From: Infirmifilum sp. NZ
Lineage (GTDB): Archaea; Thermoproteota; Thermoprotei; Thermofilales; Thermofilaceae
Reading direction: 5' to 3'
Length of the DNA: 64,000 nt
NCBI RefSeq assembly: GCF_022693705.1
Contig: NZ_CP094288.1
Coordinates: 1,630,526 to 1,694,525, forward strand
A program made the translations under genes and the position numbers. This document shows, piece after piece, positions 3,855 to 62,824 of the stretch (position 1 is its first letter; each line of letters opens with the position of its first letter). The notes under the pieces are model-generated. The model was not told where the DNA came from. It saw only the letters and a program-made list of their open reading frames with translations, and ran no database searches.

Positions 3855-5503
3855 CGGAGGTTAAGGATCTCTACTGGAGGTACCGAGGCTCGAAGGAGCC
3901 AGCTCTGAGAGGCATTACCCTAGAGGTTAGGGATGGAGAGTTCCTGGCTATCACCGGGCCGAGCGGCTCTGGGAAAACCACTCTGATCCTAGCCCTCACG
4001 GGCATAGTCCCCCAAAGGATACCGGGCGAGTTCAGCGGCAAAGCACAGGTTCTCGGACGCGACACTGCGACGATTGACGTTTCCGAGCTGGCGAGGGACA
4101 TCAGCGTAGTGTTCGAGGACCCCGAGATTCAGTTCGTGATGAGCACAGTTGAGGACGAGATAGTCCTAGGGTTAGAGCCCCTCGGTCTGGACGAGGGTGA
4201 GGTGAAGGAAAGGCTGCGCTGGGCCCTGGGCCTCGTAGGACTGGACGAGTCTTTTCTGCAGCGCACTCCGAACCAGCTGTCGGGGGGTGAGAAGCAGCGC
4301 GTAGCTATAGCTTCAGCTGTCGCCAGAATGCCGAGGCTACTGCTCCTCGACGAGCCGACCTCCGACCTAGACCCAGCAGGCAAGGAGGAGGTGGTCTCGG
4401 CCATCAGGAGGCTGAGGGACGAGTACAGGGCCACCATCGTCATGGTGGAGCACGAGCCCGAGCTGATCGAGGAGTTCGCTGACAGGCTGGTGGTGATCGA
4501 TGGCGGAAGGGTGGTGCTGGAGGGTAGCCCGAGCGAGGTATACGAGCTGGGTGAAGCCGCGAAGCGGCACGCTGCCTACCCCCCTGAGCACGTTGAGCTG
4601 GCGGAGAGGCTGAAGGTCAGCCCCCCGCGGCTCGACGCGCTCATAAAGGCGGCGCGAGAAGGAGCGGTGAGCATCCAACCTATCTGCGACTCCGTACCCC
4701 CCTTGAGCTATCAGAGAGAGGTCGTGGCCTCGGTCAGGGACGTCTGGTTCTCCTACACGAAGGGTATTGACGTCCTCAGGGGGGTCAGCCTCGAGCTACG
4801 CGCGGGCGAGCTAGTCGCCCTCATGGGCCCGAACGGGAGCGGCAAAACTACGCTCTCGAAGATCATCGCAGGCCTCCTGAAGCCCAGGAGAGGAACCGTC
4901 ATCGTCGACGGGGTTAGCATCGACAAATACACGCGCCTAGAGCTTGCGGCGAAGGTCGCCTACATCTACCAGAACCCGCAGCACCAGATTTTCAACCAAA
5001 CCGTGTGGGACGAGGTCTCGTTCGGGTGGAGGATCCGGGGCGTGCCCGAAGAGGTCTACTCGGAGAGGGTTCGGGAGGCGTTGGAGCTCTTCGGGCTTAG
5101 TGGGCTTGAAGGCGAGCACCCCTTCTTCCTCAGCAAGGGTGAGAAAAGGAGGCTCGCGATAGCCAGCGTATACACACTGGAGCCCAAGCTCCTAATAGTC
5201 GACGAGCCGACAACGGGGCAAGATAGGAGGCTCAGCGAGCAGCTGATGGCCACCTTCAAGTCCTTCGCGGAGCGCGGTAAATCTGTTCTCGTAGTGACTC
5301 ACAACGTGAACCTAGCGCTGAAGTACGCTGACAGGCTTGTAGTTATGGTCTCTGGCAGGGTTGTTGCTGACGGGCACCCAAAGGTGGTGCTGAGCGACGA
5401 CTCCGTGGTCAGAGAGGCGAGGCTGAGGCAGCCCGCTGAAATAAGGGTGTGCAAGGAGGCCGGCCTCAGCCCTCTTCCGGGGTACACGCATCGACCTCCA
5501 TAG
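3845..5503 (+). CDS. Fused ECF ATPase EcfA-EcfA'
   Basis: 552-aa protein with two complete ABC ATPase domains in one chain, replacing the usual EcfA1/EcfA2 pair. First half: Walker [11 protein letters not shown]-loop region EDPEIQF, signature LSGGEKQR, Walker [13 protein letters not shown], switch His in VEHEP. Second half: Walker [18 protein letters not shown], signature LSKGEKRR (G to K in the second position), Walker [13 protein letters not shown] and VTHN. The ATG at 3845 overlaps the ecfT stop by 10 nt; a GTG at 3833 is also in frame. The 3' end overlaps the convergent PRTase gene by 38 bp. Soluble, membrane-associated through EcfT. Confidence 0.9.
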
Positions 5504-52398: not shown

Positions 52399-53196
52399 CT
52401 AGCGTTGAAGCGTCGAGGAGGCTTGCAAGAGTTCTCTTGCACGCGCCAGCCTCTCGCGTGCCCCCGCAACCAGAAAGCGATAGTCGCTACCGAGAGCGAT
52501 TAGCTTGAAGCCGCTCCTCAGAGCGAACTCGAGAGACTCGTTGTCGGAGCAGTACATGCCACCGGGCACGCCTGTCTGCTCTGAGACCTCCGCTAGTCTC
52601 TCGACGGCTTTCCTCACAACCTCGTCCTTCCAGGACCTCTTACCGTACGAGAATGAAAGGTCGTTTGGCCCAATGAAGAATGCGCTCACCCCTTCAACCG
52701 CCAGGATCTCTTCAGCTCTCTCAACAGCCTCACGAGTTTCAATCTGCACGATGACGAGAATGTTATGAGCCTCCTTGAAGTACTCCTCTGTCCTGAGCCC
52801 CCAGGAGGCCGCTCTTCTAGGTCCAACCCCCCTTATACCCTCAGGCGGGTACTTCACCGACTTCACCGCGAGCTCGGCGTCTTCTTTTCTGTTGATGAGC
52901 GGGAAAAGAACGCCTGCCACACCTAAGTCAAGTACCCGTTTCACGTAAACGGGGTCGTTGAAAGGCACCCGCACGAGCGGCGTCGCGTCGCTCCTAACAC
53001 CCATAAGCATGTGCTCGAGGTGCTGGTAGTCGATCGGCGCGTGCTCCAGGTCAAAGAGGAGCCAGTCAAAGCCGAGCAGGGAGAGCATTTCAGGAACCTC
53101 CGGGTTTGCTATAGTCACCCATGCGCCGAAGCTCACCTGTTTCTGCTTAATAAGTCCGGGTAGCTTGCCGAACATTTTGTATCGAGCTTTTAACAT
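52399..53196 (-). CDS. HpcH/HpaI-family class II aldolase
   Basis: 265 aa. FDLEHAPIDYQHLEHML, VRVPFNDPVYVKRVLDLG, QIETREAVERAEEIL and FIGPNDLSFSYG are the metal- and oxoacid-binding blocks of 2-keto-3-deoxy-aldarate type aldolases, which release pyruvate from 2-keto-3-deoxy sugar acids. ATG at 53196; an internal ATG at 53175 is possible. It is divergent from the dehydrogenase gene, with a CCTAACCTGTTTGG element 23 bp upstream of its start. Confidence 0.85.
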   Translation of the reverse strand: MLKARYKMFGKLPGLIKQKQVSFGAWVTIANPEVPEMLSLLGFDWLLFDLEHAPIDYQHLEHMLMGVRSDATPLVRVPFNDPVYVKRVLDLGVAGVLFPLINRKEDAELAVKSVKYPPEGIRGVGPRRAASWGLRTEEYFKEAHNILVIVQIETREAVERAEEILAVEGVSAFFIGPNDLSFSYGKRSWKDEVVRKAVERLAEVSEQTGVPGGMYCSDNESLEFALRSGFKLIALGSDYRFLVAGARERLARARELLQASSTLQR

Positions 53197-53218
53197 TAGT
53201 CAAGTTATTTGAAATTCG

Positions 53219-53232
53219 CCTAACCTGTTTGG
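53219..53232. promoter_or_regulatory. Operator candidate, site 1 (aldolase / dehydrogenase)
   Basis: CCTAACCTGTTTGG, an imperfect inverted repeat (ideal CCAAAC-NN-GTTTGG), between the divergent aldolase and dehydrogenase genes. It lies at the expected BRE/TATA position of the aldolase gene and just upstream of a TATA-like acatatatc (53239-53247) of the dehydrogenase. It recurs at 56587 and 57524. Confidence 0.65.
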
Positions 53233-53280
53233 ACACTTACATATATCTAACCCTCTCTCCATCGTTAACCCGAGGAGGCA

Positions 53281-54297
53281 ATGTACAAAGTCGCTGTCGT
53301 CAATTCGCGCTCTTTCGGCGTTAACGCCCCAGAACTCCTTGACGAGTTAAGGAAGCAAGCTCAAGTCGACTTTATAGAGGTCGATAAAAAGCTTAGGGGC
53401 AGAGAGCTCGCCGAGAGGCTCAGAGGTTACCACTTTATCATAGCAAGCGTCACACCCACTTACGATGAGGAGTTCTTCAGGACCAACAAGGATGTCCTCC
53501 TGCTCGCCAGGCACGGTATAGGTGTGGACAATGTTGACGTGAAAGCCGCAACCGAGGAAGGGGTCATCGTAACCAGGGTGCCTGGCTTCAAGGAGCGAGA
53601 CGCCGTTGCCGAACTCGCAGTTGCTCTGTGCCTCAACGTTGTACGCAAGGTATGCTACTCTTACACCCTCGTAAAGCAGGGGAAGTGGTCTGAGCGCGGA
53701 AAGATTATCGGCTTCAACATCCGTGGAAAAACTGTAGGAGTTATAGGGATCGGCAACATAGGGGGGCGTGTGGCTGAGATATTTGCCAAGGGCTTCAACG
53801 CTCGAGTGCTGACCTTCGACCCCTACGTGAAACCGGAAGAAGCCGCCAGGATTGGTGCACAGCTAGTAGACTTAGAAACTCTTCTCAAGGAGTCAGACAT
53901 AATAATGCTACATGCCCCCCTCACGCCACAGACATATCATATGATAGGCGACAGAGAATTTTCACTAATGAGGCAAGGAGTAATAATTGTGAACACTGCT
54001 AGAGGGGAGCTCATTGACACCCAAGCCCTTTTGAAAGCCCTGGATAACGGTAAGGTGGCAGGAGTCGGGCTGGACGTCGTAGAAGGCGAACCTATAGACG
54101 CCACGCACCCCTTGCTCAAGTACGATAACGTCGTCATCACACCACATATCGGGGCAAACACCCGAGAGGGGCTAAGGGGAATGGACGAGTCGAACGTTGA
54201 CGCCATATTGAAGGTAATCCGAGGAGAGCCACCGACGGAGTACATGGTAAACCCGGAAGTACTTTCGAGAGGAACCAGAGCCAAACTCCAAACTTAG
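53281..54297 (+). CDS. D-isomer 2-hydroxyacid dehydrogenase
   Basis: 338 aa. NAD-binding GIGNIGGRVAEIFAKGF near 158-175, catalytic Arg in NTARGELID, Glu in GLDVVEGEPID and His in ITPHIGANT. Interconverts a 2-keto acid and a D-2-hydroxy acid, for example glyoxylate, hydroxypyruvate or a sugar-derived keto acid. ATG with GAGGAGGC ribosome site. Divergent from the class II aldolase, whose products could be its substrates. Convergent with the FGGY kinase downstream. Confidence 0.87.
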   Translation: MYKVAVVNSRSFGVNAPELLDELRKQAQVDFIEVDKKLRGRELAERLRGYHFIIASVTPTYDEEFFRTNKDVLLLARHGIGVDNVDVKAATEEGVIVTRVPGFKERDAVAELAVALCLNVVRKVCYSYTLVKQGKWSERGKIIGFNIRGKTVGVIGIGNIGGRVAEIFAKGFNARVLTFDPYVKPEEAARIGAQLVDLETLLKESDIIMLHAPLTPQTYHMIGDREFSLMRQGVIIVNTARGELIDTQALLKALDNGKVAGVGLDVVEGEPIDATHPLLKYDNVVITPHIGANTREGLRGMDESNVDAILKVIRGEPPTEYMVNPEVLSRGTRAKLQT

Positions 54298-54309
54298 AAA
54301 CCAGTCAAC

Positions 54310-55824
54310 CTAAGCAACGGCTTGGCGAAGATAAACTGGTTTAATTCTCTCCAGTAGTAATTTGAACAATTCATAGCTCTTCCGGTAGCCGTCCAAGTTC
54401 TCCCGACTAGGCGTAAAAGTCTTAGCGATTCTAGCTTTTCTCTCCGCGTAACTCCTCAAGTCCCTAATATATCCCAGTGCCTTCATCCCCAGTAAAGCAG
54501 CACCCCACAGGGCTGCATCCCTTGTATGGACGCGGCGAACAGGAACTTCCAGCACATCAGCTATTATCTGAAGCCACAGGTCAGAGCTCGCCCCGCCACC
54601 GGTTATCCTCACCTCCCTCACATTGATCGAGTTCTCTTCTAAGGCCTCCTTAACAAGCCTCAAGTTGTAAGCTACCCCCTCAAGGAAGCTCCTTATAACA
54701 TGAGCCCTCGTGTGGTCCTCTCTAAGCCCGAATAAAACGCCCGAAGCTTCGTTACCGAACTCCGGTATCCGCTCCCCGACCAGGTAGGGCAGGAAGATTA
54801 ACCCTCCTGCACCCGGCGGTGCTTGACCGGCTTCAAGGGTCAACGCATCGTATACGTTTTCGCCGAGCTCCTCTGAAAGGAGCTTCTCGAGGTGACCGAA
54901 GTTGTCCCGGAACCACCTCAGCACAATACCGGCGTTGTTCAGCGCTCCACCGGGTAGCCAGACACCATCGCACGCATAGTAAATTTGAAACCTCATCTTA
55001 CCGGTACCATCCACAATAGGCCTGTCGCTCGCAACACGTAGCATGGTGCTTGTTGAGAGGTGGGAGGAGCCTATACCGCTAGATAAAGCGCCTTCACCGA
55101 CAGCCACGGAGCCTCCATCGAATATCCCCGGGATCACTGGGACAGGTTTCTCAAGCCCGATCAGCCTTGCGACCTCTGGCTTCAGGTCTCCAATGATTTC
55201 GTCGCCCTCAACCAGCTCTGGGAGCTTCGACGCGTCTAGACCTAGCTCCTCTAAGAGTTCATGGTCCCAGCTCATACTCCTCATATTCATTAGCTGAGCC
55301 CCTGAGGCGGAGCTTTTCTCGAAAACTGCCCTCCCCGTGAGCTTGTAGAGGAGGTAACCTTTCGCGTCCAGGAAATACCTCGTCCTCGCGTACTTCTCGG
55401 GACTTCGCTTGTAAAGCCAGTAAATCTTAGCAAGCTGGTAGATGTATAGGGGCGGGCACCCTGTCCTCTCGTAGACGACCGAGGGTTGTATCTTAGAGTA
55501 GATCTCTTTGAGAACTTCAGCAGGCCTCCTGTCGAGCCATGTAATTATCCCTGTTAAAGGTTCTCCGGCGGCATCTACCCCTGTCAAACCGAAAAGGTAG
55601 CCTGAGAAGACAAGCGCGTCGATCCTGACCTTCGAGCTAGAAACAGCCTCACTGGCTAGCTTGACGAAAAGCTGCAGTAAGAGTTCGGGGTCATGTTCGG
55701 CTGCTTGCGCTTCAGGTCTTAAAACCGGTACTTCTACACCCTTGAAAAACAGGAAGTCGGACTCACCGCTAACTATTGATACTTTAAGTGTGGTAGTGCC
55801 GATATCGGCGACAAGGAAGTTCAT
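54310..55824 (-). CDS. FGGY-family carbohydrate kinase (1)
   Basis: 504 aa. ADIGTTTLKVSIV at the N-terminus, GCPPLYIYQLAKIYWL in the sugar-domain region, GIGSSHLSTSTML and ITGGGASSDLWLQIIADVL in the ATP domain. Related to xylulo-, glucono- and similar kinases; the sugar is not readable. It is paralogous to the kinase at 60745-62226, sharing the GCPPL-Y-LAKI block. It follows the HTH regulator by 14 nt on the same strand and is probably cotranscribed with it. Confidence 0.87.
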   Translation of the reverse strand: MNFLVADIGTTTLKVSIVSGESDFLFFKGVEVPVLRPEAQAAEHDPELLLQLFVKLASEAVSSSKVRIDALVFSGYLFGLTGVDAAGEPLTGIITWLDRRPAEVLKEIYSKIQPSVVYERTGCPPLYIYQLAKIYWLYKRSPEKYARTRYFLDAKGYLLYKLTGRAVFEKSSASGAQLMNMRSMSWDHELLEELGLDASKLPELVEGDEIIGDLKPEVARLIGLEKPVPVIPGIFDGGSVAVGEGALSSGIGSSHLSTSTMLRVASDRPIVDGTGKMRFQIYYACDGVWLPGGALNNAGIVLRWFRDNFGHLEKLLSEELGENVYDALTLEAGQAPPGAGGLIFLPYLVGERIPEFGNEASGVLFGLREDHTRAHVIRSFLEGVAYNLRLVKEALEENSINVREVRITGGGASSDLWLQIIADVLEVPVRRVHTRDAALWGAALLGMKALGYIRDLRSYAERKARIAKTFTPSRENLDGYRKSYELFKLLLERIKPVYLRQAVA

Positions 55825-55838
55825 ACTTTAGACTCACA

Positions 55839-56552
55839 TCAGCTAGAGTTAAGCAAAAGCGTAAGTAGCTTCTGCTCACCCCTCCGGAGGTGCTCGCTTA
55901 AAGTGGCCTTCGAGATCCCGAATTCTCGGGCTAGCTCCGTAAGAGAGATTTTCCGTGGCCATTCATAGTATCCACGCTTAATAGCCTCAACGAGTATTGC
56001 CCTCTGGGATGGGGTTATAGCTTCACCGGCAGCAATGTTCAAACCCAGGAGGCTTGTCTCACGGATAGCTGTTTCGAACGAGACCTTCTCAAAAGACAAG
56101 ACTTTCCCATGCATTGAAAGCCTGGACAGCACTGAGCTATGATTTTCTGGTGAAATCATGTAGAACACCCTCCTGCCCGACTTGAGGACGTATGGGAAAA
56201 ACGTAAACCTGCCTGAGCTGAGGGTGTACTCGTAAAACTCGCATAAACTCTTCGTAACTGCCATGATCATAGAGTATCTTTTTTTACTCATAATCCTATA
56301 GTCCTCAACCTCAGGGTGCTTGTTGAGCTCCTCCATGAACATCTGGTGGATTCTCTTCTTCTCAGGAAGCGAGACGTAAATCATGGTTGTGGCGTGGTTG
56401 CCGCTTACTGTTATTCCTTCAACGTACACACTTACTCCGGGGATCTTGCTGAGAGCCCCCAGCACGCTCCTGTACGGCTCCATAACAACCCTGTACGTGG
56501 AAAGGCGTGTCTCGGGGCGGTCCAGGCTTCTCGCGACATCAGCTGACTCCAT
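55839..56552 (-). CDS. Bat-type helix-turn-helix regulator of the sugar locus
   Basis: 237 aa. The C-terminal domain (about 180-235) reads ITPSQRAILVEAIKRGYYEW then ISLTELAREFGISKATLSEHLRRGEQKLL, the HTH_10 domain of bacterio-opsin-activator-like archaeal regulators. The N-terminal 175 residues, probably the ligand-sensing part, include a block at about 80-95 (EVEDYRIMSKKRYSMI) but no family I can name. It lies inside the catabolic locus, is divergent from the DapA-family aldolase, and has an operator candidate (56587-56600) at its own promoter, which suggests autoregulation and control of the locus. Confidence 0.82.
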   Translation of the reverse strand: MESADVARSLDRPETRLSTYRVVMEPYRSVLGALSKIPGVSVYVEGITVSGNHATTMIYVSLPEKKRIHQMFMEELNKHPEVEDYRIMSKKRYSMIMAVTKSLCEFYEYTLSSGRFTFFPYVLKSGRRVFYMISPENHSSVLSRLSMHGKVLSFEKVSFETAIRETSLLGLNIAAGEAITPSQRAILVEAIKRGYYEWPRKISLTELAREFGISKATLSEHLRRGEQKLLTLLLNSS

Positions 56553-56586
56553 GCTGAGTTAGATGAGTGAAGTGGGGCAATATAAA

Positions 56587-56600
56587 CCTACCCTGTTTGG
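56587..56600. promoter_or_regulatory. Operator candidate, site 2 (regulator / aldolase)
   Basis: CCTACCCTGTTTGG, sitting exactly between two divergent TATA boxes: aatataaa (56579-56586) facing the regulator gene and tataataaata (56601-56611) facing the aldolase gene. A protein bound here would cover the BRE region of both promoters. Confidence 0.65.
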
Positions 56601-56638
56601 TATAATAAATAATTCAAGAAACTGAAGCTCAGTTACCG

Positions 56639-57523
56639 ATGACGACTCAGCTCTTTGGCATAATTCCCCCGCTGCTGACGCCGTTTACCTCTGCTGGCCA
56701 CGTAGACTTCGACGCGCTCAAACAACTGCTAGACCTCACGATGCCATACGTGCACGGGTATTACGTGTGCGGGACCTACGGGCAGGGCCCGCTAATGAGC
56801 ATCGCGGAGAGGAAAAAAGTCGTCGAAAAAGTCGCTGAGCATGTGGGCTCGTCGAAGCAGCTGGTCGTGCACGTGGGCTCTGCGGCCACGGATGCCGCGG
56901 TAGAGCTCGCCAGGCACGCAGAGGAGGTGGGCGCAACAGCGGTGGCGAGCGTCCCGCCTTACTACTACCGTCACACGGAGGAGGCCGTTTTAGAGTTCTT
57001 TAAAGACCTCGTAAAGTCGACAAGCCTCCCAGTCTACGTGTACAACAATCCTCCGCGGGTTGGGTACCCTGTAACCCCTGAGCTTGCCGCTAAGCTCAAA
57101 GCCATCGGCGTAAGAGGGGTGAAGGACAGTAGTTTTGACGTTCTCACGTACATGAACTACAAGCTGCAAGCAGGTGAAGACTTCGACGTGGTTGTGGGAA
57201 CAGAGGCTTTAATGCTCCCCACATGGGTTCTAGGTGCAAAAGCGTTCATACCCGGTATGTCGAACTACCTTCCCGAGCTCGTATATGAGCTGTTCAAGGC
57301 GCTGGAAAGCGGCGACCTAAGTAGAGCTCAGCTGCTGCAGTTCCGCGTAAACAGGCTACGCGAAGAGCTGCACAAGCTAGGTAGCCCGATACCAACAGCA
57401 TACGCTCTACTGAGAATTAGGGGCATAAAGGAATGCTACCCCAAAAAGCCATTTCTGCCCCCCAGGAAAGACCTAGAGGAAACTGCAAGGAAAATAATGG
57501 AGGAGTTCTTACGTAATCGATGA
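56639..57523 (+). CDS. DapA/KDG-aldolase-family class I aldolase
   Basis: 294 aa of the dihydrodipicolinate synthase / N-acetylneuraminate lyase family. Y135 in YVYNNPPRVGYP and Schiff-base lysine K162 in RGVKDSS. The GTTGE loop common in the family reads GTYGQG (45-50), a difference shared by pyruvate aldolases with other substrates. Likely cleaves a 2-keto-3-deoxy sugar acid to pyruvate and an aldehyde; lysine biosynthesis is unlikely given the sugar context. Confidence 0.85.
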   Translation: MTTQLFGIIPPLLTPFTSAGHVDFDALKQLLDLTMPYVHGYYVCGTYGQGPLMSIAERKKVVEKVAEHVGSSKQLVVHVGSAATDAAVELARHAEEVGATAVASVPPYYYRHTEEAVLEFFKDLVKSTSLPVYVYNNPPRVGYPVTPELAAKLKAIGVRGVKDSSFDVLTYMNYKLQAGEDFDVVVGTEALMLPTWVLGAKAFIPGMSNYLPELVYELFKALESGDLSRAQLLQFRVNRLREELHKLGSPIPTAYALLRIRGIKECYPKKPFLPPRKDLEETARKIMEEFLRNR

Positions 57524-57537
57524 CCTAACACGTTTGG
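57524..57537. promoter_or_regulatory. Operator candidate, site 3 (ABC importer operon)
   Basis: CCTAACACGTTTGG directly after the aldolase stop and immediately upstream of a TATA-like cttaaaaaag (57538-57547) that serves the ABC importer operon starting at 57576. Half-sites CCTAAC and GTTTGG are the same as in sites 1 and 2. Confidence 0.65.
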
Positions 57538-57575
57538 CTTAAAAAAGATTACGGGCCTTAAATATATAAGCATGT

Positions 57576-58967
57576 ATGAGCACGCAAACCAATAGGGCGG
57601 TTCTAGCCGTAGCAATAATAGGGATTATTCTCGTCATCGGCGTCGTAGCCTACTTCCTCACGAGGCCAACACCAACACCTACCACCCCGGCACCAGCCCA
57701 GCAACCCCAACAGGCGGCGAGACCGAAGCTTGTAATATGGGGTAGAGCAACCTTCACCCCACCCCAGATGTACTGGGTTGAGAAGAAGGTCAGGGAGTGG
57801 GCAGCACAGCATAACGTTGACGTGGAGATTACGTGGCTGGCCGTCGCGGATATAGGGAAGAAGTTAACAGCGGCGGTAGAGGCGGGCAACCCGCCCGACG
57901 TAGTTATAAACGGGCACCCTGTAGCCATATTCGCTGAGCGGGGACTTCTCGTACCGATCGACGACGTCGTTAAGAAGCTTAACGAGAGCGACATCTACGA
58001 GATCAAGCTGAAGGAGTGCTCATGGGGAGGCCACTACTACTGCATCCCGACAATGTTTGAAGCTACTTGGCTACATGTCAGGTGGGACATTGTCGAGAAA
58101 GCCGGTGCACAAGACCTCTTCCCGCTGAAGAGCCTCGACGACTTCTACACCGCGGCTAAGAAGTTACACATGGTGGAGCCAGGCGTCTACGGTATTGGCC
58201 TACCCCTCGGCCTAAACGGGTATGACACTTGGTGGACATTCCTCCACTTCTGGGGCGGCTACGGTGGAGCCATGCTTACAAACAGGTCTGTGGCCGGTGT
58301 CGTAATGGACAAGGAGCCCTACAGGAGTGCTTTGAAGAAGGCCTTCGAGATTGAGAGAAGGATATGGGTCGAAGGCCTCACACCACCAGATAGCGACCAG
58401 TGGGTCGACGCCTCAAACAACAACGCTTTCCTGCAGGGAAAGATCGCCATGACGATGAACCCCGCCAGCATCTACTACGCGCTGATGACCCAGAACCCCA
58501 AGCTCGCCGCTGTCACAAAGCTGTTCCTTGCACCCGTATCTGTCGACTGCGGAGACGAGAGCGTGTTCATTTTCAAGACGACGAAGTACCCCGACCTCGC
58601 GAAAGACCTTGTGTACTACCTCTTCGCGGATAAGGATGACTACAGGAAGGGCTTCTGCGAGGCGTCAGCTCTCTACGCGCTCCCGATATTCAAGAGCCAG
58701 ATGGCGGTAATCTCCAAGGACTGGAAGGCCGGCAAGTACCCGCAGTTCGGCGAGGACCCGGCGAAGGCTGTTGAGAAGATAAAGTTCATGGAAACAGCCG
58801 CGTTCCCGCTGGGAGAGAGGACGACGCCTAGCGAAGAGTTCCGCGAGGGCTTTACTTGGAACGAGATGATCCAGAAAGCCGTAGTAAAAGGCGAGGACTT
58901 CGACAAGGTAATAGATGAGTACGCGCAGAAGCTGAGGGACGAGGTAAAGAGGGTTTACGGCGGATAA
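57576..58967 (+). CDS. Sugar ABC transporter substrate-binding protein
   Basis: 463 aa. A hydrophobic N-terminal anchor (about 10-29) is followed by a Thr/Pro/Gln-rich linker (30-50), as in archaeal sugar-binding lipoprotein-like anchors. The binding domain is of the extracellular family 1 type, with GNPPDVVINGHPVAIFAERG and a hinge region NAFLQGKIAMTMNP. It captures the sugar outside the cell for the two permeases that follow. First gene of the operon 57576-62226. A T-rich tract in the 30-nt gap after it may partly attenuate the downstream genes. Confidence 0.9.
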   Translation: MSTQTNRAVLAVAIIGIILVIGVVAYFLTRPTPTPTTPAPAQQPQQAARPKLVIWGRATFTPPQMYWVEKKVREWAAQHNVDVEITWLAVADIGKKLTAAVEAGNPPDVVINGHPVAIFAERGLLVPIDDVVKKLNESDIYEIKLKECSWGGHYYCIPTMFEATWLHVRWDIVEKAGAQDLFPLKSLDDFYTAAKKLHMVEPGVYGIGLPLGLNGYDTWWTFLHFWGGYGGAMLTNRSVAGVVMDKEPYRSALKKAFEIERRIWVEGLTPPDSDQWVDASNNNAFLQGKIAMTMNPASIYYALMTQNPKLAAVTKLFLAPVSVDCGDESVFIFKTTKYPDLAKDLVYYLFADKDDYRKGFCEASALYALPIFKSQMAVISKDWKAGKYPQFGEDPAKAVEKIKFMETAAFPLGERTTPSEEFREGFTWNEMIQKAVVKGEDFDKVIDEYAQKLRDEVKRVYGG

Positions 58968-58997
58968 AAATATTTTTCTTTTATCGGTGACTTCTTC

Positions 58998-59855
58998 ATG
59001 ACTAAGAGCTTAAATGAATCCATATACAAGTGGCTCTACGCCCTACCCACAGTAGCTCTGATCTTCTTCATTTTCATCATACCTACAATATACGAAATCT
59101 GGCTTAGCTTCCACACCAAGGTAATTGGGGGAGAACCGGTTTTCGCGGGTCTATACAATTACCAACGCCTCATATCTTCTGAGGTCTTTTACAAGACTAT
59201 TCTTAACACGATCATTTACTCATTCACATCTGTGTTCGCAAAGGCCATTATTGGCCTCGGTGCGGCTCTGCTCCTCAACATGAGGTTCAGAGGAAGAGGG
59301 TTCCTGAGAGGGTTCTCGATCCTCCCGTGGGCTTTCCCCTCCTTCGTGTGTGCAGTGCTATTCTGGTTCAACTACGACTACCGAGGCACCTTCAACATGA
59401 TACTAAAAGCCTTGGGTCTTCAGCCGATCCACTGGATGAGCTACGACAACGCCATGTTCTCGGTGATTCTGCTTAACATTTGGCATGGTTGGCCGTTCTT
59501 CTTCATGGGATACCTGGCGGGGTTGCAGGCGATACCCGTAGACCTCTACGAGGCCGCTGACATCGACGGTGCGTCACCGCTTCAGAAGTTCAGAAGCATC
59601 ACGCTCCCGATGCTGAAGCCTGTGCTACTTACGGTGATGCTCTTGTCTTTAATGTGGACGATGGGCGAGTTCACGCAGATTTACATGACAACAGGAGGAG
59701 GTCCCATAGACGCTACGCTGACGATCCCGATCCAGACCTACAAAATAGCTTTCCAGACAGAGTTAAACATGCCGCTAGCGGCGGCTTACAGTGTTCTAGT
59801 TCTCCCCATATACCTTGTCTTAATCTACTTCACGCTCAGGCAGATGGGTGAGTAG
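58998..59855 (+). CDS. Sugar ABC transporter permease (MalF type)
   Basis: 285 aa, six membrane segments. The cytoplasmic EAA loop DLYEAADIDGASPLQKFRSITLPML (about 188-212) docks on the ATPase. CUT1 family. Next permease starts 3 nt after its stop. No ATPase gene follows. Confidence 0.9.
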   Translation: MTKSLNESIYKWLYALPTVALIFFIFIIPTIYEIWLSFHTKVIGGEPVFAGLYNYQRLISSEVFYKTILNTIIYSFTSVFAKAIIGLGAALLLNMRFRGRGFLRGFSILPWAFPSFVCAVLFWFNYDYRGTFNMILKALGLQPIHWMSYDNAMFSVILLNIWHGWPFFFMGYLAGLQAIPVDLYEAADIDGASPLQKFRSITLPMLKPVLLTVMLLSLMWTMGEFTQIYMTTGGGPIDATLTIPIQTYKIAFQTELNMPLAAAYSVLVLPIYLVLIYFTLRQMGE

Positions 59856-59858
59856 CGC

Positions 59859-60737
59859 ATGTCGGTCGCACGGCGGAGGATCTACGAAAAGGTCGTCATT
59901 GCTGCTGGCAGTGCGCTCCTACTTCTCTGGATAATCATCCCGTCGTTCTGGGCTTTCAAGACAAGCATCTCACCTCCCGAGGAGGCCTGGGCCCCGATCC
60001 CCTCGCGTATAACTCTCGACAACTACCTCAGCCTCTTTAACCCCAGTCTCGAAGCAGTGCTCAGGGGGATGGGTCTCAGGGCCACGATACCTGACCCCAT
60101 GATAGTGTACATCACCAACAGCTTGGTAGTCTCCTCAATAGCATCTATTCTCGGTGTCTTCTTTGGCTCGCTGGCTGGGTACAACCTAGCTAGATTCAAC
60201 TACCGCGGGAAAAGGCTCGTAATATGGCTTGTGCTCTTCGCCTACGTTTTCCCCGTCTTTGTGCTCATGGTGCCGATAGTCCTAGTCGTGAGGGCCCTTG
60301 GCCTTTACAACACGTTATGGGGACTGGCCCTCGTCCACCTCGCCTACACGCTACCCTACTCGACCCTCATGATGAGGAGCTACTTCTACGGGATACCCGC
60401 AAGCCTCGAGGAAGCGGCGCTGATAGACGGGTGCACGAGGTTCGAGGCTCTGTGGCGGGTAGTGATCCCCGTAGCCGTGCCGGGCTTCGTCACAGCTTTC
60501 ATATTCTCCTTCACCCTCTCCTGGAATGACCTCCTCTTCGCCTTGATCCTCATCAACACGAGCAAGTACTACACTCTACCTATAGCGACGACGTTCTTCC
60601 TCTTCGGAGGCGAAATAGTGGATCCCGGGGGCCTAGCCGCGACAGCCATATTCGCAGGCCTCGTCCCAGTTGCCATTTACATGTTCGTGCAGAAGTACGT
60701 GGTAGTAGGGCTGGTTAAAGGCGCGGTGAAGGCGTGA
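59859..60737 (+). CDS. Sugar ABC transporter permease (MalG type)
   Basis: 292 aa, six membrane segments. The EAA loop ASLEEAALIDGCTRFEALWRVVIPVAVPG (about 180-207) is present, and the C-terminus ends FVQKYVVVGLVKGAVKA, the usual MalG-type tail. Forms the channel with the preceding permease. The kinase gene starts 7 nt downstream. Confidence 0.9.
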   Translation: MSVARRRIYEKVVIAAGSALLLLWIIIPSFWAFKTSISPPEEAWAPIPSRITLDNYLSLFNPSLEAVLRGMGLRATIPDPMIVYITNSLVVSSIASILGVFFGSLAGYNLARFNYRGKRLVIWLVLFAYVFPVFVLMVPIVLVVRALGLYNTLWGLALVHLAYTLPYSTLMMRSYFYGIPASLEEAALIDGCTRFEALWRVVIPVAVPGFVTAFIFSFTLSWNDLLFALILINTSKYYTLPIATTFFLFGGEIVDPGGLAATAIFAGLVPVAIYMFVQKYVVVGLVKGAVKA

Positions 60738-60744
60738 ACCGCCG

Positions 60745-62226
60745 ATGGAAGACTTTCTCCTAGCTGTTGACATTGGGACAACCAACGTTAAAGGGGCTCT
60801 CTTCCAAGTAGACGAGGGCAAAGCCATTGAAACATTTTCGCAGAGAATAACCACTTACTCAGACGAGAGAAGAGGGGCCGCGGAACAAGACCCCGAGGAG
60901 ATATACAGAGCATTCGAGAAGGTGCTGGGTTACTTCGCGGGAAAGGGGTACTCGAAGAAGATAGGGGCGATCTTCCTCTCATCGCAGATGCACGCCTTCG
61001 GCACCCTGAGTATGGAAGGCAGGCCCTCAACCAGGCTGCTCACGTACTTCGACACGCGGAGCAGAGAAGTGCTCCCGCTGCTCAACAGGGTTGGGTACGA
61101 CCTTTACCTGGAGACAGGTTGCCCGCCCCTGCACGTTTACCCCCTGGCGAAGATCATCCTAGCGCGCAGCAGGGGATGGATCAGCAGGGCGGACAAGGTT
61201 CTCTTATCCGCCAAAGACTACGTCATCCTGAAGGCTACGGGCGCCCACGTCCTAGACCTATCCACCGCCTCCGGATCGCAGATGCTGAACGTGCGTACCC
61301 GAAAATGGAGCAGCCTAGCGCTAGAGCTTGGAGGGGTGGACGAGAACCAGCTCCCCGATCTCGTGGAGGGCTCCGAGAAGCCCCTCGAAATCTCCCCTAT
61401 GCTCGCAAAGAAGATGGGTCTACCTGAGGACACAGAGGTGTACGCAGGCGTATCCGACGCCTCGGCAAACCAGTTCGGAGTGGGGGCGACGAAGCCCGAC
61501 ACCGTGGCTATCAATCTCGGAACCAGCGCGGCGGTACGCTTTCTCACAGACAAGCCCGTGTTCGACGATGAGAGGATGCGCTTCTTCCTCTACTACGCTG
61601 GTAGCGGCAAGTACCTGGCTGGGGGCGCGGTCAACAACGGGGGGATAGTGGTGGAGTGGTTCCTCAGAAGCCTGGGCCGGCTCGAATCCGAGTTCTCCGC
61701 GGTGCCTGGACTCGACGCCTACAGACTCGTTGACTCCCTAGCCTCCACTTCGCCACCTGCTTCGAACGGTTTAATAGCCCTCCCCTTCCTGCACGGTGGC
61801 GAGCGCTTCCCCATAAGGAACCCGGACGCCAAGTGCATAATCTACGGCTTACAGTTCCACCACAGGAGGAGCGACATCCTGAGAGCGCTACTGGAGGGGG
61901 TGGCTTACACCCTTAAAATGATCTACGACGCTCTGTGCGAGCACGGCTTAAGCGCCCGCCTAGCGAAGATAGGCGGAGGCGCGTCGAGCCTCACGGTGTG
62001 GCGCCAAATCATCGCGGATGTTTTCCAGATGCCTGTTCACAGAGTAAAGTCTGTCGAGTCAACCCTGTTAGGCTCGCTAATCCACTACGCTAACGCCAGG
62101 GGTGCTCTAAGAGAATTCGCGCTACCTGAAGACGTGACACAGCCTATTGAAGAGAATCGGGAAACCTACGCAAATGCGTATGCAAGGTACCTTAAATTGA
62201 TTGAAAAGCTCTCGGAGTTTGTATAA
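60745..62226 (+). CDS. FGGY-family carbohydrate kinase (2)
   Basis: 493 aa. AVDIGTTNVKGALF at the N-terminus, AEQDPEEIYRAFEKVL, GCPPLHVYPLAKIILA, and KIGGGASSLTVWRQIIADVF in the ATP domain. Last gene of the importer operon, so it most likely phosphorylates the imported compound. Paralogue of the kinase at 54310-55824. A 60-bp degenerate copy of part of this gene lies at 63027-63090. Confidence 0.87.
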   Translation: MEDFLLAVDIGTTNVKGALFQVDEGKAIETFSQRITTYSDERRGAAEQDPEEIYRAFEKVLGYFAGKGYSKKIGAIFLSSQMHAFGTLSMEGRPSTRLLTYFDTRSREVLPLLNRVGYDLYLETGCPPLHVYPLAKIILARSRGWISRADKVLLSAKDYVILKATGAHVLDLSTASGSQMLNVRTRKWSSLALELGGVDENQLPDLVEGSEKPLEISPMLAKKMGLPEDTEVYAGVSDASANQFGVGATKPDTVAINLGTSAAVRFLTDKPVFDDERMRFFLYYAGSGKYLAGGAVNNGGIVVEWFLRSLGRLESEFSAVPGLDAYRLVDSLASTSPPASNGLIALPFLHGGERFPIRNPDAKCIIYGLQFHHRRSDILRALLEGVAYTLKMIYDALCEHGLSARLAKIGGGASSLTVWRQIIADVFQMPVHRVKSVESTLLGSLIHYANARGALREFALPEDVTQPIEENRETYANAYARYLKLIEKLSEFV

Positions 62227-62336
62227 CTAGCTATCTTCTGTGTGCCTTGCAAAAGGTTCTGGCTTTGGCTTACATATGAGGGGATGCTTAAACAATTTCA
62301 ACACTTATGATTAGTATAAAGTGCTCTAGAGTAAAA

Positions 62337-62367: not shown

Positions 62368-62568
62368 ATGAAGAGAATTATTCACGTAAGGATTTACAAG
62401 GGAGAAAAGTATTACGTTGCAGAGTGCATTGATCTTCCAGTTGTGAGCCAGGGTAAGACTCTAGACGAAGCAGTAGAAAACATAAGAGAAGCTATACATC
62501 TTCATCTTGAAGGAGAAGATTTAAGCGAATGGGATATTCACCCAGACCTTTCTATCCTAGAAGCATAG
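62368..62568 (+). CDS. hicB: HicB-family antitoxin
   Basis: 66 aa: KYYVAECIDLPVVSQGKTLDEAVENIREAIHLHLE is the partial RNase-H-like HicB fold with its C-D-L-P and G-x-T-x-x-E-A-x-x-N-I-x-E-A blocks. The short form without a C-terminal DNA-binding domain. Followed after 12 nt by hicA, which is frameshifted. Strongly AT-rich relative to the window, consistent with recent acquisition. Confidence 0.82.
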   Translation: MKRIIHVRIYKGEKYYVAECIDLPVVSQGKTLDEAVENIREAIHLHLEGEDLSEWDIHPDLSILEA

Positions 62569-62580
62569 AAGTCCCCTCCT

Positions 62581-62824
62581 ATGCCGAAGCTTAAAAGCAT
62601 TAAGTGGGAGAGACCTAGTTAAAATATTCTACAGACTCGGATTTACGGTAGCTTCTCAGAAGGGAAGCCACGTTAAACTAAAAAGAATTCTACCAGATGG
62701 AACAAAGCAAATCCTAACTATTCCTCTACACGAAGAATTAGACAAGGGGACTCTGAAAGCTATCTATAGACAAGCCTTGAGATATATTCCAGAAGAGGAA
62801 TTAAAAGCATATTTTTATGAGTGA
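62581..62824 (+). pseudogene. hicA: HicA mRNA interferase, frameshifted
   Basis: ATG 62581 starts MPKLKSI, then the frame hits a stop after 13 codons. Shifting one base near 62602-62604 (an extra A in ttaagt) gives GRDLVKIFYRLGFTVASQKG, then SHVKL...LTIPLHEELDKGTLKAIYRQA, ending at TGA 62822-62824. That is a complete HicA with its catalytic histidine in GSHVKL. Without the extra A the protein would begin MPKLKSISGRDLV, the family norm. The toxin is therefore probably inactive while hicB is intact. Not annotated by simple ORF calling because no start lies in the second frame. Confidence 0.72.

Follow-up and report, generated by a model that had tools for sequence, protein, structure and literature searches.

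Palindromic elements of an archaeal sugar-acid locus are probable operators of its own HTH_10 regulator

In the 64,000-nt stretch of the Infirmifilum sp. NZ genome analyzed here (the window), three copies of a short inverted repeat lie among genes that appear to serve the uptake and cleavage of a sugar acid. The first-pass annotation of this DNA proposed that the three elements cover every promoter of the locus and form a single regulon under a Bat-type regulator encoded at position 55839. This raises the questions of which protein reads the elements, whether it activates or represses, and how far its regulon extends. We addressed them in the complete source genome (G000; 1,829,130 bp), in comparison genomes (G numbers), and in individually fetched loci (L numbers).

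The locus consists of nine genes in five transcription units (Table 1). Its aldolase, kinase, and importer families fit sugar-acid (2-keto-3-deoxy) catabolism, and a dehydratase gene is absent from the locus; a sugar acid is the substrate suggested by family membership. The importer operon encodes a substrate-binding protein, two permeases, and the second FGGY kinase. Since there is no gene for an ATPase in the locus, the ATPase that serves the importer is probably a shared one. For the HpcH aldolase, a start at 53175 is probably correct rather than one at 53196, because its relatives begin with M-F/I-G-K/R-L-P.

Table 1. Candidate operators and genes of the sugar-acid locus, in window coordinates.
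Feature	Position	Strand	Sequence	Location, families, and relatives
Class II HpcH/HpaI-type aldolase	52399..53175	-		PF03328; best solved relative 2-dehydro-3-deoxygalactarate aldolase 1dxe
Operator 1 (candidate)	53219..53232	.	CCTAACCTGTTTGG	Between HpcH aldolase (-) and dehydrogenase (+)
D-2-hydroxyacid dehydrogenase	53281..54297	+		PF02826/PF00389; relatives phosphoglycerate dehydrogenase, glyoxylate reductase
FGGY carbohydrate kinase, downstream of regulator	54310..55824	-		PF00370/PF02782; best solved relative gluconate kinase 3gbt
HTH_10 (Bat-type) regulator, 237 aa	55839..56552	-		PF04967, E=8e-21
Operator 2 (candidate)	56587..56600	.	CCTACCCTGTTTGG	Between regulator (-) and DHDPS-type aldolase (+)
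Class I (DHDPS/KDG-type) aldolase	56639..57523	+		PF00701; best solved relative archaeal KD(P)G aldolase 2r91
Operator 3 (candidate)	57524..57537	.	CCTAACACGTTTGG	Between class I aldolase and importer operon
ABC sugar-type substrate-binding protein	57576..58967	+		PF01547
ABC permease, first of two	58998..59855	+		PF00528
ABC permease, second of two	59859..60737	+		PF00528
Second FGGY kinase, closes importer operon	60745..62226	+		PF00370/PF02782

The three 6-2-6 elements are present as first described, with one small correction: the half-site CCTACC of operator 2 breaks the symmetry at one base. All three are intergenic. Operators 1 to 3 are the only matches to CCTAMCNNGTTTGG without mismatch in the window, and in the whole of G000 the symmetric form CCWAMCNNGTTWGG has no exact match other than these. 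Matches with two mismatches number 255 genome-wide, compared with 323 for a reversed control pattern, and G000 therefore appears to hold no hidden wider or scattered family of the element. Among the one-mismatch matches inspected elsewhere in the genome, nearly all fall within ORFs. A wider regulon in G000 was considered and rejected, as the inspected one- and two-mismatch matches are nearly all in ORFs or off promoters. Separately, a perfect palindrome of another sequence, CCGAATATGTTCGG, was seen at positions 82057-82070 of the G000 contig, about 6 kb from the only other HTH_10 gene of the genome (75692-76252), and is possibly an operator variant of that gene.

The protein encoded at 55839 carries a C-terminal HTH_10 domain (PF04967) that scores 74 bits against a curated cut-off of 23.1. 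Other domain matches were limited to weak, generic HTH families, and the PAS and GAF domains are absent, so the protein is not Bat proper. In the predicted structure (pLDDT 88.6), two tandem beta-alpha-beta-beta-alpha-beta domains precede the C-terminal HTH. A fold search of the PDB with this model returned only weak matches, the best being 5m86 (Ta1207).

The regulator has orthologues in three congeners, with identities of 58, 46, and 40%, and further ones, at about 34-35%, in the order-level relatives G022 and G024. The order of the locus is kept in the three congeners, with truncation at a contig end in G002, and most of their orthologous promoters carry the element. Between the dehydrogenase and the HpcH aldolase, the site is CCTAACCTGTTTGG in G005 (identical to operator 1), CCTAACAGGTTTGG in G002, and the pair CCTAACGGGTTTAT and CCAAATGCATTAGG in G003. 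At the regulator promoter, G005 has CCTATTCTGTTTGG and G002 a degenerate, weak CCTAACTTTTTCGG, and no recognizable site was found in G003 at the position of operator 2. At the importer promoter, the sites are CCTAACAAGTTTGG in G005, CCAAACGAATTTGG in G003, and, as a 6-3-6 variant with a spacer of 3, CCTAACTTTGTTAGG in G002. The sites of the congeners are conserved while the flanking intergenic DNA has diverged.

In G022 and G024, genes of a phosphotransferase system (PTS) stand beside the regulator orthologue in place of the ABC importer. The regulator comes after HPr, with enzyme I nearby, and in G024 EIIC-GAT and EIIB components are also close (protein families were assigned by scanning the G024 proteins, and the G022 labels rest on sequence similarity to these). 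Divergent from the regulator is a related class I aldolase (52-54%) in both genomes and, in G024, also a dehydrogenase (40%). The only exact genome-wide matches in the two genomes are CCTAATATGTTAGG and CCTAATACATTAGG, and both lie in the divergent promoter that faces the regulator operon on one side and, on the other, the aldolase or the dehydrogenase. The transporter is thus exchanged, while the regulator, the operator, and an aldolase or dehydrogenase stay together. G024 also encodes a second regulator paralogue (L061), adjacent to a further EIIC-like gene, for which no site could be recognized.

The same restriction was found on a wider scale. Among 31 genomes scanned, the six with an intact regulator orthologue contain nine exact sites for the palindrome CCWAAYNNRTTWGG, and all nine are in the locus; the chance of this is about 7e-18 when 20 kb per 1.6-Mb genome is counted as locus, a rough figure given that the congeners are related. 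The other 25 genomes gave 13 matches, and at the 11 places examined most were inside ORFs and the remainder intergenic at unrelated genes. Scatter at unrelated positions, which the first-pass annotation had named as the outcome that would speak against its proposal, was seen neither in G000 nor in the regulator-bearing genomes. Gene losses provide natural experiments. G008 has kept the divergent HpcH/dehydrogenase pair (74-75% identity), and near this pair there is no regulator, kinase, class I aldolase, or transporter of this type; its HpcH/dehydrogenase promoter lacks the element, the best match having four mismatches. In G231, a genome of the same species (98.7% DNA identity; L123), about 8.3 kb corresponding roughly to window positions 53949-62233 is missing; the gap begins within the dehydrogenase, ends shortly after the second kinase, and includes the regulator. 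A truncated dehydrogenase and operator 1 remain, so we read the deletion as recent and its operator 1 as probably a relic. The module is therefore polymorphic within the species (window 53949-62233 versus L123 of G231). Directly beside the deletion end point, at window positions 62368-62824, lies a HicB-like antitoxin gene followed by a HicA-type toxin gene (PF07927) whose frame is apparently interrupted near its start.

The upstream activating sequence (UAS) of bop, through which haloarchaea switch on their light-driven proton pump, is among the best-studied archaeal activator sites, and the version that was mutated experimentally is reportedly ACCcnactagTTnGG. This UAS controls bop and co-regulated genes (PMC3184054, PMC1502140, PMC1447603), and the BRE of the bop promoter is not conserved (PMC2121645). 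We fetched 80 haloarchaeal rhodopsin loci and scanned them with a half-site matrix trained on 12 Thermofilum-order sites only. Matches upstream of rhodopsin genes include CCGAAC-T-GTTTGG, CCCAACAGGTTTGG, CCCAACAAGTTTGG, CCTAACTGGGTTGG, and CCTACCCTGTTTGG, the last of these (L189, Natrinema ejinorense) being the same 14-mer as operator 2. Against dinucleotide shuffles, 36 of 77 rhodopsin promoters reached p<=0.05, where about 4 are expected, and 54 of 77 ranked in the top 5% of the same-locus background, where 25 column-permuted matrices gave 6-33. In the 936 kb of sequence, 8 of the 14 strong matches are inside promoter windows that make up 1.2% of the DNA (treating the loci as independent gives P about 1.5e-12); such P values overstate the strength because haloarchaeal loci are related, and the variants nonetheless come from several genera. 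Bat-type genes adjoining the rhodopsins share the HTH core GYxEWPR...HLR..E.KL with the window regulator, whose HTH_10 domain is identical to those of two Bat-type proteins at 19-23 of 54 residues. By their sequence, the window elements appear to belong to the Bat-type operator pattern, an inverted repeat like CCnnAC-n1-2-GTTnGG lying immediately upstream of TATA at target promoters.

Several other observations were made in these loci. The top-scoring haloarchaeal site, CCAAACTGTTTGG (L126 position 363, L197 position 9063), is located elsewhere than at the rhodopsin promoter and may belong to a further target promoter. In Halobacterium salinarum DSM 3754 (L124, positions 1-124), the DNA directly upstream of bop is unlike that of relatives, ends at the contig start, and is without a UAS-like site; this is possibly an insertion in the strain or an assembly edge. 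We also considered and rejected a family-wide HTH_10 autoregulatory operator: only 3 of 46 upstream regions of other HTH_10 genes had a match at p<=0.05, about what chance would give, and since most of these regions lack the element, the family has no one common autoregulatory operator. An exception is L033/L204, where a perfect CCTAACATGTTAGG (L204, G037, 4956-4969) precedes the start of another HTH_10 regulator by four bases; this regulator is near a CstA-like gene, and G037 belongs to a different family of the same class.

From these results, we consider it very probable that the three elements are operators of the HTH_10 protein encoded at 55839-56552, which would act as a dedicated local regulator of the sugar-acid uptake and cleavage locus. 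The exact matches form a local, autoregulated pattern: these candidate operators are confined to the promoter of the regulator gene itself and to the neighboring units. In the mechanism that we propose, a dimer of the regulator would read the half-sites CCWAAC and GTTWGG across the 2-bp spacer, and operator 2 would put the regulator gene under its own control. The two predicted alpha/beta domains at the N-terminus may sense the sugar acid or its 2-keto-3-deoxy derivative as inducer. Once the inducer is sensed, the bound regulator would compensate for the poor BRE of these promoters by recruiting TFB/TBP, in the manner of TFB-RF1 (PMC5937170).

Promoter geometry bears on how the regulator acts. 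In G000, the best TATA-like box is 5 nt away from the palindrome edge for both the dehydrogenase and the HpcH aldolase, 1 nt away for both the class I aldolase and the importer, and 0 nt away for the regulator. The earlier claims that each element sits at a TATA/BRE position, and that together they serve all five transcription units, hold in that every unit has a TATA-like box 0-5 nt from a site. With such spacing, the palindrome fills the BRE position, and at the two divergent promoters it does so for both directions of transcription. Operator 2 has a TATA-like box touching or nearly touching it on both sides; operator 3, the first base of which is 1 nt past the aldolase stop codon, abuts the box of the importer operon. 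In the promoters of relatives, the spacing is mostly 0-7 nt, with larger values from the automatic scan for three (11, 27, and 34 nt); the 27-nt case is the G005 importer, where, just as in G000, the site is also directly adjoined by a CTTAAAAGAG box. Because the palindrome sits between or just upstream of TATA-like boxes, where TFB would contact the BRE, we lean toward activation as the mode of control. The same regulator and operators could also work by repression, with the bound dimer blocking TFB/TBP until the sugar acid releases it. Sites 0-5 nt from the boxes, some of them flush, could equally block TBP/TFB; the overlap of operator 2 with the core promoters on both its sides, in a divergent pair under self-regulation, is an arrangement often seen with repressors; and promoter-bound regulators have been described as blocking TFB/TBP (PMC5937170). 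However, Bat, which has the same element at its target promoters, is an activator of bop (PMC3184054), and the GG ends of the palindrome take the place of the BRE, so that the bare promoters should be weak; repression thus appears the less probable mode, if a plausible one.

It is very unlikely that another regulator, with its gene elsewhere in the genome, reads the element instead, as the sites follow the 55839 orthologue even where most other genes of the locus have been replaced (G022 and G024), are absent where it has been lost (G008), and resemble rhodopsin promoters under the control of an HTH_10 protein. Although the elements are just 14 bp long and lie in promoter regions, chance matches or core-promoter (BRE) conservation can hardly account for them, given that 1.83 Mb holds no further exact match, that the element is kept amid diverged flanks, and that shuffle tests of the individual G000 regions gave P values of about 0 to 0.0035. 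The assignment to the local regulator is therefore well supported by the restriction to the locus, the absence of the element from G008, and the match to rhodopsin promoters; together with the HTH_10 domain and the tracking of sites with orthologues, these bear out the single regulon that had been proposed.

Our literature search found no description of this regulon, which appears to be a new, well-bounded one for a known regulator family. A candidate regulator, its operator, and a full target list are now given for a hyperthermophile, and to our knowledge few hyperthermophile sugar regulons have a defined site. The likeness of the operator to the Bat element across phyla was unexpected. One possible explanation, which we offer tentatively and with some doubt, is that one HTH_10 lineage has a DNA code (CCnnAC/GTTnGG, immediately upstream of TATA) that is older than the divergence of Thermoproteota-type archaea and haloarchaea, or that spread between them, and that became attached to unrelated sensors, for sugar acids in one case and for oxygen and light in Bat. 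If so, the bop UAS would be one particular form of an ancient activator element in archaea. With the operator linked to the bop UAS across so deep a divergence, the HTH_10 protein-DNA recognition code becomes testable.

Among known systems, the closest comparison is with Bat and the UAS of bop, brp, and crtB1 in Halobacterium and other haloarchaea, which share the HTH_10 domain and, immediately before TATA, the half-sites CCnnAC/GTTnGG. Bat senses through PAS and GAF domains and responds to oxygen and light, whereas the window regulator, at 237 aa, is predicted to have two alpha/beta sensor domains and is encoded in a sugar-acid locus. Spacers differ too: many of the haloarchaeal sites have 1 bp (CCGAAC-T-GTTTGG), the window elements 2 bp. 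The small regulators NarO and DmsR of haloarchaea are likewise HTH_10 proteins without PAS or GAF domains that act as pathway-specific regulators (PMC11218638), but their targets belong to anaerobic respiration, and the comparison here is one of protein type. TFB-RF1 of Pyrococcus furiosus is a different protein with a different palindrome (TCTG-N5-CAGA), but its palindrome similarly lies directly upstream of a weak BRE/TATA, and its local regulon, conserved within an order, also includes an ABC transporter (PMC5937170).
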